Shown piece by piece: positions 51,610-63,768 of a stretch of 64,000 nucleotides of DNA (position 1 is the stretch's first letter; each line of letters starts with the position of its first letter). The position numbers and the translations under genes were made by a program. The stretch is from the NCBI GenBank assembly GCA_016490735.1, contig JAEMWC010000993.1, positions 212,501 to 276,500 on the forward strand, read 5' to 3'. Below the pieces are notes generated by a model. It made no database searches, was not told the origin of the DNA, and saw only the letters and a list, made by a program, of their open reading frames with translations. Source of the DNA: Pachyseris speciosa (lineage: Eukaryota > Cnidaria > Anthozoa > Scleractinia > Pachyseridae).

Positions 51610-54600
51610 TTAATTCATAATTACTTCAAGTGTGAATGCTGTATCAAATTCTCCACTATTGGGATGTGAATAATCAATGATTAAATAGCCTCTCGATAAT
51701 GATTTATTGACGTCAACCGTTGTGATGTTTCTACCCGCAGCATTATGTCTGTATTCAAAAATTGTTGCTGGTAATGGTAAATTTCCAGCACCTTCAGCTT
51801 TTGTCTTGAAGTAGAATATTCCGGGTTTTGTTCCTTGTATTACATACATATTCTTAATATGAAAGTTATTGTTATGAATGACTAAAAAATCAGCGCCATT
51901 TATCAATACAGGCTTTAAAGCATTCTTATTATGTCCTCGTTTGGCTTTGACAGAGCAATTTAAATATTGTATTTGACCGATTATTCCATTCCCATTCAAA
52001 TTTAGATCACCTCCTAATTTCGGCCTGTAAAGAGCAAATCCACCCAAATCGAAAGCCGTTTCCATAATTACACCTGTAACGCTTGAACGAAATAGTTTCA
52101 AACTATTATTATGAATTCTATAGCCATTCAGATTTAAATCACCACCAAGTTTAGCCTCTTTTATTAAATAGCTGTCCATATTAATATTATTTAGCATTGT
52201 AAATTCACCATTGTCTCCACCAAACAACCAATTTTCATTTTCTTTCACATCAAAACCATTCAAATCTAAATCAGTTTGTAATTGTATTGTTTCATTCACG
52301 ATTTTGAAAGGTTCAGAGAAGTCGTAAACACTTGATGGAACGTCTACTGCTTCAAAACCAATACCATATACAACACAATGAACTTTGTACTTATTTGGAT
52401 AAGTTGGGTTAGCATTAATATTAATCGTACAATATAAATATTCAGGTGGTGAACTTGCTGAAGGTTTTTCAAACCATAATAAATATCTCGAATGATCTTC
52501 ATTTCTGTTGTCAAATTTTCTCCCTACGGTTTTATGAATTGAAATTCCACTAGTTGAACTGAATGTTACACTACTAAGACTCATTCCTTCATAATCAGGA
52601 AATAGCCATTCGAGAATGAAAGTGTATGTTCCATCTTTTATTGTATACATATTGAATCCAATTTTGGCTCTGTAAGTATCTTCAGATTCTTTATTCAAGT
52701 CTATATCAATGACCTTTTTTGAAATCAAATGTGGTGAACGAGGTAAATTGACATATCCATTAACTGTCAAGCCATATTCAGTGCTAATTTCATCGATATC
52801 ATTCATCAAATATTTGAAAGCATTCTTTGGATGAGAAGCAGATGAAATATGACTTTTTTCTAATTGATCTAAATTTACGGCATCGGTTTTATTTGTTCCT
52901 TCTTTTAAGTCAATGATTTTATGCCCTCCAAGTTTCATATCTGCTGCCATCGCATTTGTTCCATTCAATAATAAAGTGTTTGCTCTGATAGTTTGTGAAG
53001 CTCGATTTAAAACTCTAAAGTTCACTGCATCAGTTTCATTCACCACGTCCGCTAAATTAGTCACTCTATTTCCACCCATCGACAAATCGCCATACATTGC
53101 AGTCGAACCGTCTCGTCGGAGAAAATATTCGTCAGTATAACGTTTTGTCGCCGCATCGTCTGCGTTGACGGGTGGAGCAAGATCAGTAATGGCATTGTTG
53201 TTCATATTCAGATTTTGTTGTGCAATCGTATCGAGTTTGGTTTGCAACCTCTGGTCCACATAACTTTTGTTTACAGCATCTTGTGGGTTTGAGGGGTTAT
53301 CCTGCAGGTTGAGGATTTTGTTTAGTTTCATGTCAATATTACTGCCAAATGCAACATGGCCGTTTTCAATTTCATAAGCCGGGTCATGGAGAAAGTAAGA
53401 CAAATTGGTATGATAGCCATAGGCCCCATAAACGATGATATGTGTTTTGGTGTTAGACGCAGGAGCTGTGCTAAAAAGTAAAACATCAATTGACGCTTGA
53501 CCACCACCAGTTTTTTCGATTCGGAAAAGCTTCTTCATATAACCATCAACATACGGGGTTTTGAGAAAAGGTTTTTGAAATGGCTGTCCCGCATCTCGTA
53601 TATTCAATGTGCGAAGATCGAGCCCAATTGTAGCTTGGCGTGGGTCTGATGGTGAGAAAAACTCAGTAACAAATGTATACTGTCCATTTCTCAAAGATGT
53701 CACATTAAAACGAATTTTGGATGTAAAGTTGCCTCTTCGTTTAATGAAAAAAGACAATGATGACTTGTTTATGTGATAAGGTGATCTGTCAAAATTCTCA
53801 ATTTGAAGGTTTGTTGCACCACTAACTGCAGAAGACTTGGATATGTCTTTTAACAGAAAAGCGAATGGGTTGCGTTGAGCTCCTGATGCTGAAAAAACAA
53901 GGTCATCAACATACTTTTTGTTGGCAGAATCTTTATCAGAGTTTGGAGTCTCAACATTTGTTATTTTATTGTCACCCATGTCAAGATCACCAGTCATTGC
54001 AACACTTCCATCTTTTTTAAGAAATGGTGAAACATCAATGCCAGTAATTCCAGCAATTTCAGTATCAACATACCCCTTCGTGGCTGAATCATTGTTTGCT
54101 GTTGGCGCTGCTACATTAGTCAATTTGTTACCTCCAAGATTCAAATCAGAAGTCATTGCAACGCTTCCATCTTTTTTCACAAAGTCAGAATTAACATATG
54201 CTATATTCGCTTTATTATTCGACAGATATGTGACAGCATCATCAACGTATTTTTTAGTTGCGCTGTCTTGTGGAAGTATAGGGCGTGCAACATTGACTAT
54301 TCTATGAAAACTCATTTTAACCTCACGATCAAATACAATTCTTCCTCCTTCTATTTCAAAAGCTGGGTCGTGAATATGTGATAAAATGATATTAGAAAAT
54401 CCATAAACACCATAAACTATAACATAATGTTTTTTATTATTTTGTAAATATGGCGAAATCAACAATAACTCCATTGATGTGGAACCATGACTTGTTTTTT
54501 CAAGGAAGAATATTCTCTTAAGATAACCATCAACAAGATGAGTCTTTGGAAATGCTCTTTTTATTGAATCCTTTCTTTCAATTAAATTTGATGACAGATT

Positions 54601-55169
54601 GTCGTCATCGACTGTTGCATTATTTGGGCTACCATCAGTATAAAACTCAACAACTAAAGTGTACTTTGAAACTTCCAATTGTGTCAGATCAAAACGAAGA
54701 ACAGTTGTAAACCAGCAGTAGGAATAACAAAAGACAAGGCTATTTTATTAAATGAGTAAGGGCTTTTGTCAAAATCTTCCAATTGCAGATTATTCGCATT
54801 TCTAAGAATAGTTGTTTTTGATGTATCTTCAAGAAGAAATTTGAATGGATTAACACGTGTTCCTTCAATTGATAAAACAGCATCATTAACATATCCCAAG
54901 TTAGCAGAATCATAATGATTTACTGGATCACCAACATTTGTCAAACGTTTATTTTCAATATCATAATTGCCATCTTGTGTTAATCTAAATCCATCACCTG
55001 TTTCACCTTTATTACCTTTAAAACCAAATGGACCTCTATCACCTTTATCACCTTTTGGACCTCTTTCACCTCTATCACCTTTTTCACCTTTGGGACCAAT
55101 TGGACCAGCTGGGCCTCTTTCACCAGTTTCAGTTTCATCTTGATTTATTTGAGCATTAAAAACTCCCAT
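51610..55169 (-). CDS. Large collagen-stalk fibre protein, interrupted by one frame change
   Basis: Two colinear frames, 55169-54684 and 54678-51610, make a fibre of nearly 1190 residues. The N-terminus has MGVFN and about 15 Gly-X-Y triplets (residues 18-60). A ~170-residue domain then occurs three times, each starting near NPFKFL/NPFAFL/NAFKYL. The domains are separated by short repeats of the form GGNKLTNV..P..ATKGYVD, like phage tail-fibre shafts. The second frame has no ATG at its start (the first codon is TTG). The break lies near 54684-54720 and is a net -1, best explained by one lost base. Function: receptor attachment is inferred from architecture. A TCTAA box lies 17 nt upstream of the ATG. 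Confidence 0.75.
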
Positions 55170-55186
55170 TATATCATCTTGTTAGA
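55170..55186 (-). promoter_or_regulatory. TCTAA box of the large fibre gene
   Basis: TCTAAC begins at 55186 on the minus strand, immediately after the TAA stop of the 23-codon frame. It is followed by AAGATGATATA up to the ATG. Confidence 0.6.
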
Positions 55187-57845: not shown

Positions 57846-57861
57846 TCTAACACAATAATAT
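57846..57861 (+). promoter_or_regulatory. TCTAA box of the major capsid gene
   Basis: TCTAACACAATAATAT precedes ATG 57862 with exact 16-nt spacing. It is the clearest copy, and it stands in noncoding sequence after the upstream stop. Confidence 0.7.
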
Positions 57862-59149
57862 ATGTCAAACTATCGTGACTCAAAATATATCGAAAGATAT
57901 GAAGATGTAGTGTTCGAACTAGAGACAGCACTTAATACTGTAGTAGCAAACAATGCTCATCAGAAGAAAACAGGTTACCGTTTCATTGTTGATAACAGTG
58001 GAGAGACTACACCATTTGACTGGTATAATGCCCGTTTTAATGTCGATTTCATTGTAAAGAAGCTTGCAGATGGAGCTGACATTGCTGAAGGAGATCGAAA
58101 TGGTATTGTTAATTCAGTTCACGCTCTTATAAACACTCTTTATGTAAAAATGAATGGTCTTGATGTTTATGAGTGCAGAGATGCCAACCAAGCCACAAAT
58201 ATTAAGTCATTGCTTGAGTATTCACAGGGTTATGCTGTAAGTCAGGGAACCAATGAGTTCTTCTATCTTGACGACAAAAGACAAGCTGATGATAGAGTGG
58301 CCCAGGTGGCTACTTATAACAAAGGTTTCGCAGCTCGTAAAGCACTGTTGAATGGTGCAGCCGGTAAAGTAAATGCAGAGCTTGCATTGAACAGATACGG
58401 TTTTTTCAAGAGCTTTTGGGATGAACTTATGCCTAACTCAAAAGTAGAGATTAAATTGACACTTGAGAGTGATGACAATTTGATTTGGCAAGCTGCCGAT
58501 GATTGCCGTGTGGTACTAACTAAATTCCAGCTAATAGTTCCTCGCATTGTTTTCAATTCTGCGGGAAAGTCCTTATACATGAGCAAGTATCTTGACAACA
58601 GAAAGTGGACTTACATGAGAGAATTGATTGAGAAGGCATTCAACAAGACAACAGACTGCCAATTTCCGTATTTCCACAGCAATAAACAAACCCAGGCATG
58701 TCTTTGTATTCATCATCAATGATGTCAATGATGCATCTCAGACAGCCAATAAATTTCTCTATAACACATTCTCAGTTGCAAATAACCGAACTTTGACTGA
58801 TTGTTATCTTGAGGTTGGCAACGGAAATGATTATCCAGAGCTTCGTTATAAACCATCAACAGAACCAACAAGAGTATTTAGAGATGTTTTGAAATATGTT
58901 CATGCGGTTAATGATTTCAGTGAAAGTACCCTTCTCAACAGGGGCAATTTCGGTACAATATTCCCTTTTGTTTATTTCGATCTGACAAAACAGAAACAGG
59001 ATATTAAAGATGGAATGACAAAACTGACTTTCAAATACACTTTGAGTGCTACAACAAATGCTGATTACAGTGTGTATGCACTGGTCCTCTATGAGCAGGA
59101 TATTGAGATGAGAAAGACTGATGGAAAATTAATTCTTAGATCAATGTAA
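57862..59149 (+). CDS. Major capsid protein (double jelly-roll), one frame change
   Basis: Frames 57862-58722 and 58628-59149 overlap and are colinear; the switch (+1) is near 58655-58670. Together they give about 428 residues. The first part contains TTPFDWYNARFNVDF and ALINTLYVKMNG, the second VFVFIINDVNDA, GNGNDYPEL and NFGTIFPFVYFDLT. I associate these with Polinton/adintovirus hexon-like proteins that form the icosahedral shell. Neighbours (penton, ATPase, protease) support the call. The single frame change would truncate the protein before its second jelly-roll is complete, so the copy as printed is not functional unless the change is a sequencing error. Confidence 0.85.
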
Positions 59150-61118: not shown

Positions 61119-61274
61119 ATGAGATCATATTGTGTGAAACAGAAGAAAGTCACTGAATGTGTACCAGGAAGTGAAAGATATCAGAAGACTAAAAATGGTC
61201 GAACTGTGATGAAATGTACTTGTGCTGAATGTGGAATCACAAAAACTAAATTTGTCAGAAATCGGGGAAACTGA
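61119..61274 (+). CDS. Small zinc-ribbon protein (DUF5679-like)
   Basis: 51 residues starting MRSYCVKQKKV. CTCAEC supplies the second metal knuckle, and KTKNGRTVMK the linker, as in small YCVKC zinc ribbons found beside or fused to the phospholipase domain of related elements. One knuckle cysteine is replaced (YCVKQ instead of YCVKC), so metal binding may be impaired. I chose ATG 61119 over the upstream ATG at 61086 because of the TATATATG context and the match at MRSYC. Function unknown; nucleic-acid binding is likely for the fold. Confidence 0.6.
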   Translation: MRSYCVKQKKVTECVPGSERYQKTKNGRTVMKCTCAECGITKTKFVRNRGN

Positions 61275-61309
61275 ATAGCCCGTCTGAAGGGCGGGCATAC
61301 TAGATTCAG
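61271..61309 (+). promoter_or_regulatory. GC-rich two-tier hairpin between zinc-ribbon and phospholipase genes
   Basis: CTGAAT (61271-61276) pairs with ATTCAG (61304-61309), enclosing GCCCG (61278-61282) paired with CGGGC (61292-61296). It begins in the zinc-ribbon stop codon and ends nine bases before the phospholipase ATG. Unusual GC in an AT-rich element. Confidence 0.5.
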
Positions 61310-61317
61310 CCGCAGAT

Positions 61318-62055
61318 ATGGCACTGACAGGATTCTTGGAACATGGAGTCCCTTATTTAGCAAAGAAAGGTGTAGAAATGGGAAGATATTATGCTTCTGA
61401 AGCAATGAGAAATCCAAAGCTGCAAAAGAAATTAATTGACAAAGGACTTTCCCTCGCAAAGCCTGCAATCACAAAGGTTGGTAAAGAAGGCTTAATGCAA
61501 TTGAGCACTGCTATTAGACCCAAACGCTCTGACAAGAAAAAAATGTATAAAACGGATATTGCTGGAGTTGATTATACACGTGGTGGCTCATTGCTTGGAG
61601 ATATCATGTATGCAAAACCAGAAGATATACAAAAATGGGTAGCTAAAATCAATAAAATGGGAGGCGCGATTGATATCCATAAGGTAATTGGCAAGCTTCC
61701 TAAACCAAAAGCAGGTTGGACACCAAGTAAGTATAAGTATATGGGCCCTTATAATCCATTGCATGAGCAGTTGGAATATGATCCAAATACTGGAGAGGTC
61801 TTGAAATGGAATGTACAACCTTACAATAAGGTGGATGAAATAGCAGCTTATCATGATATTTGTTATGATATGGGAAAAAATAAAGGTGAATGTGATAGAA
61901 CAATGGTCGAGTCACTAGATCAAATACCATATGGTGAGATGCCAAAATGGGGTCAAACAGCTAGATTCTTAATTGACAAAAAACAGAAACTTGGTCTTGG
62001 TGTTTCAAAAAACGGAAAAAGCCGTCGAGTGAAGAAAACTGGCAAGAAAAACTAG
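61318..62055 (+). CDS. Parvovirus-type phospholipase A2 protein
   Basis: 245 residues. The N-terminal half is basic and helical. The PLA2 core starts near residue 135 with a calcium-loop-like YMGPYNPL, followed by the catalytic segment NKVDEIAAYHDICYDMG, where HD is the active dyad. The C-terminus is basic. Such domains act on endosomal membranes in parvovirus entry; here capsid-delivered membrane breach is inferred. In the loop the usual second Gly is Tyr, which could weaken calcium binding. The gene has no TCTAA box and follows a GC hairpin. Its 3' end overlaps the integrase frame and carries a frameshift signal. Confidence 0.75.
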   Translation: MALTGFLEHGVPYLAKKGVEMGRYYASEAMRNPKLQKKLIDKGLSLAKPAITKVGKEGLMQLSTAIRPKRSDKKKMYKTDIAGVDYTRGGSLLGDIMYAKPEDIQKWVAKINKMGGAIDIHKVIGKLPKPKAGWTPSKYKYMGPYNPLHEQLEYDPNTGEVLKWNVQPYNKVDEIAAYHDICYDMGKNKGECDRTMVESLDQIPYGEMPKWGQTARFLIDKKQKLGLGVSKNGKSRRVKKTGKKN

Positions 62056-62100
62056 CTGATGAATTACATGCACCCATAAAACGAAATTTCACTCGGCGGC
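62007..62100 (+). promoter_or_regulatory. Candidate -1 programmed ribosomal frameshift signal
   Basis: Slippery heptamer A AAA AAC at 62007-62013, in the phospholipase reading phase (tcA AAA AAC). Seven-base spacer 62014-62020. Stem strand GCCGTCGAGTG (62021-62031) pairs with CACTCGGCGGC (62090-62100): 11 pairs including one G-U, with a 58-base loop. The phospholipase stop (62053-62055) lies in the loop. A -1 slip enters the integrase frame. Confidence 0.7.
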
Positions 62101-62975
62101 GTGTGATTGTAAATAAAATTGATGAAATATGGGCAAGTGATCTAGTTGAAATGCAACAGTTTAGTAAATGGAATAAAGGTTATCGATATCTTCTTATGGT
62201 TATTGATGTCTTCAGCAAATATGGTTGGATTGTCCCATTGAAGGATAAGAAAGGTGAATCTGTCACTGAAGCATTCAAATCAATATTCAAGGAAGGCAGA
62301 AAACCGCAGTATTTATGGGTCGACAAGGGAAAAGAGTTTTACAACAAACACTTGAAGGACTTGCTAGAGAAACATAGTGTACAGATGTACTCAACTGAGA
62401 ATGAGGAGAAGTCATCAGTAGTTGAAAGATGGAATCGAACAATTAAATCCAAAATGTGGAAGCAGTTCACTGTTCAAGGCAATACACAGTATTTAGACAT
62501 GTTACCAAAATTAGTGAAACAGTATAATAATACCAAACATTCAAGCACAAAGATGACACCCGTTGAAGCATCTGATAAGAGGAATGAAGGAACTGTTTAC
62601 TTCAATTTGTATGGTGATATGGAGCCATTAAAACAAAAACTAAAATTTAAAATAGGTGATAAGGTCCGAATATCCAAGTATAAACGGATTGTGTTCGACA
62701 AGGGCTATACACCAAATTGGACAGAAGAAGTGTTTATAGTTGATAAGATCCAGTACACTAATCCAATCACTTACAAACTAAAAGATCACAACGATGAAGA
62801 AATTGAAGGGAGTTTTTATGAACCTGAGTTATTAAAGGCTAAACAGGATGTATTCCGTATTGATAAAGTCATTCGCAGAGATTACAAGAAGAAACAAGCT
62901 TTGGTGAAGTGGAAGGGATATAGTGATGACTTTAACAGTTGGATACCGTTCAAGGATTTAAAGAAAATTATCTAA
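62013..62975 (+). CDS. Retrovirus-like integrase with chromodomain
   Basis: The frame is open from 61977 to 62975. Catalytic residues: Asp in IWASDLVE (62139), Asp in LWVDKGKEF, and Glu in SVVERWNRT, the last two 33 residues apart. The C-terminus is a chromodomain (VKWKGYSDDFNSWIP). Conserved integrase sequence already begins well before GTG 62103 (ADELHAPIKRNF), and the first in-frame ATG (62151) is after the first catalytic Asp, so ordinary ATG initiation would give a dead protein. A -1 frameshift at 62013 from the phospholipase gene solves this and would yield a fusion of about 550 residues. The enzyme inserts the element into host DNA, and chromodomains steer it to marked chromatin. Confidence 0.85.
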   Translation, partial: RKKPSSEENWQEKLADELHAPIKRNFTRRRVIVNKIDEIWASDLVEMQQFSKWNKGYRYLLMVIDVFSKYGWIVPLKDKKGESVTEAFKSIFKEGRKPQYLWVDKGKEFYNKHLKDLLEKHSVQMYSTENEEKSSVVERWNRTIKSKMWKQFTVQGNTQYLDMLPKLVKQYNNTKHSSTKMTPVEASDKRNEGTVYFNLYGDMEPLKQKLKFKIGDKVRISKYKRIVFDKGYTPNWTEEVFIVDKIQYTNPITYKLKDHNDEEIEGSFYEPELLKAKQDVFRIDKVIRRDYKKKQALVKWKGYSDDFNSWIPFKDLKKII

Positions 62976-62986: not shown

Positions 62987-63768
62987 ATGCAAAAATATTC
63001 CTACGATAATAAAGAATTAGACGTTTCAATAGATTGTTATCTCGATGATAAAAACGAAATATGGTTCAGAGGAAGAGATATAGCCATTATTCTCAACTAT
63101 AAAAATCCGCAAAGAGCAATCAGAGATCATGTTGATTCTGAAGATAAAATCTTATTGGACTTCAAACTGTCCATAAATTCCAAAACAAAGTCAATTTTCG
63201 CTGATGCAATCGAAAAAACTTTCAAATGTTTTTTTATAAATGAAACAGGATTTCATTCACTTTATTCTCATCCAAAAAACAAGAAGCCAAAGAAATTAAA
63301 CATTGGGTTACTAAAAAGGTCTTACCATTAGTCAGAAAACGAATATATCAAAAACAGTTCAATGACAGAAACAATAACATGCTATTGATTGAAAATGAAA
63401 ATGATTTACACTGCAAGATTGTTTCATTCATCAGAAAGAAATATGAAGACGCATTAATGATAGCCGGCTTAGGTGAGAATCAAATAAGCTCAAACATGAG
63501 AATCAAAAGTTACAACAAAGGATATATGTCCGGACAATGTGATTTAATGTTAATGAATCCAACAAAAGAATACAATGCTCTATGTCTTGAATTCAAAAGT
63601 CCAACTGGTGTGTACCAAGTGACTGATAAACAAAAAAGTATGAAGCAAATGTATGAGAAAAACAAGTGCAAATACATTATGAGCAATTGTTTTGAAGATT
63701 TAATTTTTGAAATAACCAAACACATGGAAGAAAGCAAATTGTATTTATCATGTATAAGAAAAGACTAA
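62987..63768 (+). CDS. BRO-N domain joined to VRR-NUC-type nuclease, one frame change
   Basis: Frame one (62987-63331) carries the BRO-N fold (IWFRGRDIAIILNYKN, RAIRDHV, INETGFHSLYS). The -1 frame continues the BRO-N end (HWVTKKVLP near 63303-63330) and runs to 63768. It has a PD-(D/E)xK nuclease: CDLMLMN, LCLEFKS, and a following Gln in VTDKQKS, as in VRR-NUC proteins. The switch falls at a six-A run, A AAA AAC (63274-63280), the same heptamer and phase as the phospholipase-integrase signal. No strong downstream stem is visible, and the break lies inside a domain, so a one-A deletion is as likely as programmed shifting. Role: probably DNA repair, resolution or host-DNA cleavage; inferred. 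Confidence 0.7.

Follow-up and report, generated by a model that had tools for sequence, protein, structure and literature searches.

The window analysed here, a stretch of 64,000 nucleotides from the genome of the coral Pachyseris speciosa, carries a Polinton-like element in which an A32-like ATPase and a retroviral-type integrase with a chromodomain occur together with a phospholipase A2 (PLA2)-like protein. Two Polinton hallmarks are thus present, the retroviral-type integrase with its chromodomain and an A32/FtsK-type packaging ATPase, the latter identified as Pox_A32 in Pfam (E 1.5e-15). A PDB search with the integrase returned 13 sequences at E <=0.01, nine of which are integrases (PFV, 9.8e-7) and four chromobox/modifier proteins. 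In the Pfam search of candidate open reading frames, capsid and Ulp1-type protease families gave no match above the cut-off, and gene names of these kinds are assigned by eye. Named homologues come from the corals Oculina patagonica and Stylophora pistillata. Adjoining the Polinton-type ATPase, on the minus strand at 51610-55181, is a gene for a fibre-like protein with a collagen stretch (Collagen, 1.5e-8) and phage tail fibre-like repeats (PHROG 2710, E 1.1e-36); its own frame is broken near 54684-54744. The open reading frame at 49003-49695 matches a TFIIB-type zinc ribbon weakly, beneath the Pfam cut-off (E 0.0044), and may be a relative of late transcription factors.

The PLA2-like and integrase genes overlap in different frames, and the following features define their junction.

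61318-62055, plus strand: PLA2-like gene in the zero frame, from ATG 61318 to the stop codon at 62053-62055, with a match to Phospholip_A2_4 (PF08398, E 1.6e-7); its C-terminus reads KLGLGVSKNGKSRRVKKTGKKN
61947-61949, plus strand: integrase-frame ATG located within the PLA2 gene, closed by TAG 61962 and TGA 61974
61977-62975, plus strand: integrase open frame, -1 relative to PLA2, with Pfam matches to rve (5e-10) and the chromodomain (1.7e-7)
62007-62013, plus strand: candidate slippery heptamer A AAA AAC of the form X_XXY_YYZ, in zero-frame phase near the end of the PLA2 gene
62014-62020, plus strand: spacer of 7 nt
62021-62033, plus strand: 5' arm of a predicted stem, 13 bp with 62088-62100, including one G-U pair
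62034-62087, plus strand: loop of 54 nt, containing the PLA2 stop codon
62058-62129, plus strand: integrase-only stretch ahead of the first ATG, with integrase-frame constraint in recurrent variants
62088-62100, plus strand: 3' arm of the stem
62151-62153, plus strand: first ATG in the integrase open frame, 3' of the codon for the first catalytic Asp (62139-62141)

A preliminary description of this DNA had located A AAA AAC where the PLA2 gene ends, exactly in phase with the zero frame, with the integrase in the -1 frame, and had found no ATG in the integrase frame ahead of the first catalytic Asp. Both observations are borne out, the second for the open frame, where Asp 62139 precedes ATG 62151. 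The sole CTG, GTG, TTG or ACG codon in the open frame up to that ATG is GTG 62103. The string AAAAAAC is itself frequent in the window, with 22 occurrences on the plus strand and 20 on the minus strand, so the case for frameshifting rests on the phase, position and conservation of the heptamer.

Relatives were sought in the assembly from which the window comes (984 Mb). In the integrase search, the 121 matches scored among 5,081 candidates are 96-100% identical and 118 of them contain no stop in the match, indicating that the layout was amplified recently; the longest open frame among these matches is 345 aa. A second query gave 126 scored matches from 4,762 candidates, six with an open frame of >400 aa. 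Queries with members of other families (P0065, P0069, and P0058) recovered mostly the same clade, so that diversity at the DNA level is limited. The DNA relatives represent one assembly and one clade, and other families are known here as predicted proteins. Searches of IMG/VR and of bacterial and archaeal genomes found no DNA relatives.

We read 140 of these stretches (L001-L060 and L071-L150, L004 being the window's own copy), a non-random set made up of the 60 best-scoring matches, 40 lower-ranked matches of the second query, and 40 matches of the PLA2 search chosen for varied open-frame lengths. The integrase lies in the -1 frame in 121 stretches, in frame with PLA2 in nine, and in the +1 frame in four; three stretches have no recognisable tail and three were not recognised. 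Three of the nine in-frame stretches (L095, L101, and L102) are joined by a change further upstream, and their tail motif alone reads -1. Among the 121 stretches with the -1 layout, 118 have A AAA AAC in phase, one has A AAA AAA, and two have no heptamer. The preliminary description had regarded related copies with an ATG-started integrase as evidence against frameshifting. No integrase-frame ATG is found up to the upstream stop in 110 of the 121 stretches, and an open overlapping ATG is present in seven (L035, L053, L089, L090, L098, L099, and L114), where it lies inside PLA2 Lys-Trp codons. The other four comprise two whose only ATG adjoins the Asp codon, one of which also runs off its piece, and two more that run off theirs. 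The stretch upstream of the heptamer carries no integrase-frame constraint, as the distribution of variants among the copies indicates.

Recurrent variants, meaning those present in three or more of 133 loci (7 of the 140 stretches were left out because the script did not recognise them), were classed by their effect in each frame after loci more than 12 sites off the majority within a segment had been dropped. Across the 42 nt that precede the heptamer, 13 of 19 recurrent variants are synonymous in the PLA2 frame, against 0 of 20 in the integrase frame and 7 of 20 in the third frame. The favoured frame is a different one past the PLA2 stop, in the 72 nt before Trp codon 62130, where 10 of 17 are synonymous in the integrase frame, 4 of 17 in the PLA2 frame, and 1 of 17 in the third. 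When all variant types are counted the same contrast is present but weaker (upstream, PLA2 18/43 and integrase 8/46; downstream, integrase 19/42 and PLA2 7/39). The change from upstream to downstream has a Fisher p of 6e-5 for the integrase frame and 0.01 for the PLA2 frame, values that are optimistic since the copies are related.

Between these two segments, recurrent variants are absent from the 36 nt of overlap that start inside the spacer and extend to the PLA2 stop. Compared with its two neighbours this absence has p values of 6e-4 and 4e-7, likewise optimistic, from a crude test that sets variant types against nucleotides. Non-recurrent variants in the overlap favour none of the frames (synonymous share 7/24 for the integrase frame, 5/22 for the PLA2 frame, and 6/22 for the third) and include four stops in the integrase frame. 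With constraint in the PLA2 frame upstream and in the integrase frame downstream, the coding frame switches within the overlap. The pattern of variants says that translation of the integrase frame would be entered inside the overlap, neither from an upstream overlapping ATG nor from ATG 62151.

Downstream of the heptamer, the preliminary description had given a spacer of 7 nt, which stands, and a stem of 11 bp, which is the core of a stem with a real length of 13 bp. Spacers of 5-9 nt are described for many studied frameshift sites (PMC5009743). Over 100 nt the junction fold has a minimum free energy of -24.3 kcal/mol (z -2.9), equalled by 1 of 200 shuffles, and over 181 nt the z score is -2.0, with 4 of 200 shuffles equally good. 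Along the element, 2,129 overlapping windows yield seven with an equally long stem by the same rule, the one at the junction among them, and an equally stable fold occurs in 9 of 596 windows. In the comparison among copies, 130 of 133 junctions are in register and 69 are distinct, a set that includes a few in-frame or +1 copies. All 13 pairs are kept in 60 of the 69 distinct junctions and 12 of 13 pairs in the remaining nine. The two common changes, G-C to G-U and U-G to U-A, keep the pairing and are both synonymous for the integrase. Recurrent changes are one-sided, and a two-sided change occurs in a single junction. The heptamer and its phase are kept in related copies (118 of the 121 stretches in the -1 layout). 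The stem, in which the preliminary description had suggested looking for covariation, is nearly invariant, so that covariation gives no proof of it. The 5' arm lies in both coding frames, which may account for its conservation; on the aligned copies, conservation of the stem fits a functional structure, short of proof. A search for a pseudoknot between the loop and downstream sequence found no convincing one. The best such pairing, of 8 bp, was A-U rich with an unusual topology and was dropped.

Three further frame breaks in the window's element serve as a control for decay. All are private to the window's copy among the copies compared. For the break in the capsid-like gene (57859-59149), 7 of 10 fetched pieces could be aligned and all seven differ from the window in length; for that in the Bro-N gene (62987-63768), all 29 other loci differ from the window. 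At the border between the Zn-ribbon and PLA2 genes (61119-61345), 28 of 29 other loci were aligned, of which 27 differ and one aligned only short of the break. Since these breaks are private and the offset between PLA2 and integrase is common to the copies, the element is damaged and the offset is not part of the damage.

Several database-predicted proteins contain PLA2 and integrase in one chain, among them 14 of about 560 aa (P0253-P0262 and P0264-P0267). A fused query of the same assembly gave 78 scored matches from 8,478 candidates, including 27 that span both domains without a stop. Twenty of the junctions found with this query were fetched, and 18 are in frame (L152-L154 and L156-L170) and two in the -1 layout. 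Various length differences gave rise to the in-frame junctions; for 15 of the 18 the difference falls in one of two A runs, and some of these junctions may be assembly errors in homopolymers. The continuous fusions suggest, at the level of sequence, that both domains can live in one chain.

Predicted proteins extend the comparison to other families. Among the matches listed, 120 PLA2 homologues were examined, and in 90 a short tail before the stop contains xKN. A further 21 have LN or VN instead (L in 20), and the rest comprise five without the motif, two with long tails, and two with neither. In the 90 xKN tails, the stop follows four residues past KN in 56, and the residue before KN has an A-ending codon in all 90. 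Reading the proteins in two frames narrows the underlying DNA, and with the window as a control this approach recovered the sequence except for ambiguous last bases. For 23 integrase clusters the solutions are A AAA AAC in nine, A AAA AAY in one, U UUA AAC in two, and C UUA AAC in two, with nine uninformative; the heptamers are inferred by pairing a PLA2 record with an integrase record of another cluster. The same -1 layout is therefore implied in other coral families, some of which would use U UUA AAC. On mammalian ribosomes, A_AAA_AAC and U_UUA_AAC both rank with the sites most prone to shifting (PMC5009743). In most PLA2 homologue tails (P0121-P0240), a KLGLG-like motif is located right before the slippery site, where it may serve as a linker or be cleaved.

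The junction is very probably a conserved site of programmed -1 ribosomal frameshifting. This is the reading that the preliminary description had proposed, a frameshift that makes a PLA2-integrase fusion, and it is supported by conservation of the layout (121 of 140 stretches) and of the heptamer (118 of 121) and by the frame switch. One alternative is a separately started integrase, beginning either at an overlapping ATG within the PLA2 gene, reached by leaky scanning or reinitiation, or at a non-AUG codon. It would be compatible with the seven stretches in which an upstream integrase-frame ATG is open, to which three short pieces that run off before that point may be added. Several predicted integrases of other assemblies also begin at this ATG, and others seemingly at TTG, a codon inferred from relatives. 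However, ATG 61947 in the window is followed by two stops, 110 of the 121 stretches have no such ATG, and none of the 20 recurrent variants upstream of the heptamer is synonymous in the integrase frame. A non-AUG start would be confined in the window to GTG 62103, and constraint is already present from 62058, which makes separate initiation improbable. Still less probable is transcriptional slippage on the A run, by which a base added in some mRNAs would fuse the two frames. Many in-frame genomic copies differ from -1 copies by the length of an A run, so a slipped mRNA would encode the fusion; however, a long homopolymer is lacking at this place in the clusters solved as U UUA AAC, and ribosomal slippage would lead one to expect a stem behind a spacer of 7 nt. 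Tandem tRNA slippage predicts that A AAA AAC can be exchanged for U UUA AAC, whereas transcriptional slippage would need the long A run.

Two other explanations would remove recoding altogether. The host's genes are spliced, and removal of an intron could in principle connect the integrase frame with an exon upstream of it. The overlap that such an intron would cut, however, has no recurrent variants in its 36 nt, and the 27 spanning matches of the same assembly read PLA2 and integrase in one frame with neither stop nor intron, so that splicing is very unlikely. Decay deserves equally little credence. An indel could have split a once-continuous PLA2-integrase gene next to a heptamer present by chance, as the existence of continuous fusions, the three frame breaks elsewhere in the window's element, and the degraded state of most vertebrate Mavericks (PMC8097293) might lead one to expect. 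Yet 121 of the 140 stretches have the same offset, which is also implied in other families, and coding constraint is kept on either side of the junction.

If programmed frameshifting does operate here, most ribosomes would read PLA2 through to its stop at 62053. A minority, held up by the stem, would shift back from A AAA AAC onto AAA AAA of the -1 frame and go on into the integrase, yielding a PLA2-integrase fusion in limiting amount. We infer the slippage at the junction, its rate, and the purpose of the fusion from the comparisons above. By analogy with Gag-Pol, the likeliest use of the fusion would be to keep the integrase scarce and tied to a particle protein; that the fusion is carried by the virion, or has a role in the particle, is speculation. 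As a tentative proposal, to which we assign a little less than an even chance, the element may obtain integrase solely through -1 frameshifting, fused to a PLA2 particle protein that acts on membranes, an arrangement that would both hold the enzyme at a low dose and bring it into the particle. It would be a convergent, DNA-virus counterpart of Gag-Pol, in which some lineages have swapped the heptamer and others have become a single open reading frame. Should this hold, an abundant family of animal DNA elements would have its integrase under the control of recoding, like Pol in retroviruses and the transposase in some bacterial insertion sequences, and the apparent lack of a start codon in the integrase frames of coral elements would be explained. 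The route by which the integrase reaches the DNA of a new host would also become testable, for example in a particle where it is bound to the entry protein.

Retroviruses and LTR retrotransposons make Gag-Pol by -1 frameshifting. The coral junction resembles these systems in its abundant upstream protein, the heptamer before the stop of that protein, the 3' structure, and a retroviral-type integrase that would be reached via slippage only. It differs in belonging to a Polinton-like element with an A32-like ATPase, in having PLA2 rather than Gag upstream, and in having no reverse transcriptase between the two.

Frameshifting between these genes had been called undescribed in Polintons, and this is borne out as far as the literature search reached: in titles and abstract openings covering part of the matching literature, no published description of a PLA2-integrase frameshift was found, and the search for programmed ribosomal frameshifting in Polintons gave no match. 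The closest printed suggestion of -1 frameshifting found for this group of viruses concerns adintovirus Penton genes, for which -1 sites were predicted by software only (PMC11071296). Those sites lie in another gene and, in the sections of that report covered here, would give the protein another C-terminus and not fuse it to an enzyme. PLA2 domains are known from Maverick proteins as well. In insect (Sf) Mavericks, CAP proteins contain a PLA2 domain resembling the one in parvovirus VP1 (PMC5803895), but in the sections of that report covered here the PLA2-bearing CAP is described as a separate capsid-like protein and no frameshift is linked to it. An adintovirus of the coral Stylophora shares the host group and has a retroviral-type integrase among its Polinton genes (PMC11071308), although the parts of that report covered here mention neither a phospholipase, PLA2, nor a frameshift. 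The way in which the fusion would be made also has a parallel in bacterial insertion sequences such as IS911, whose transposase is produced by -1 frameshifting that fuses an upstream open reading frame to the catalytic one (PMC5009743). In both cases a DNA element would limit its recombinase through a slippage fusion; here, by contrast, the upstream open reading frame is PLA2-like, the genome is that of an animal, and the element is large and virus-like.
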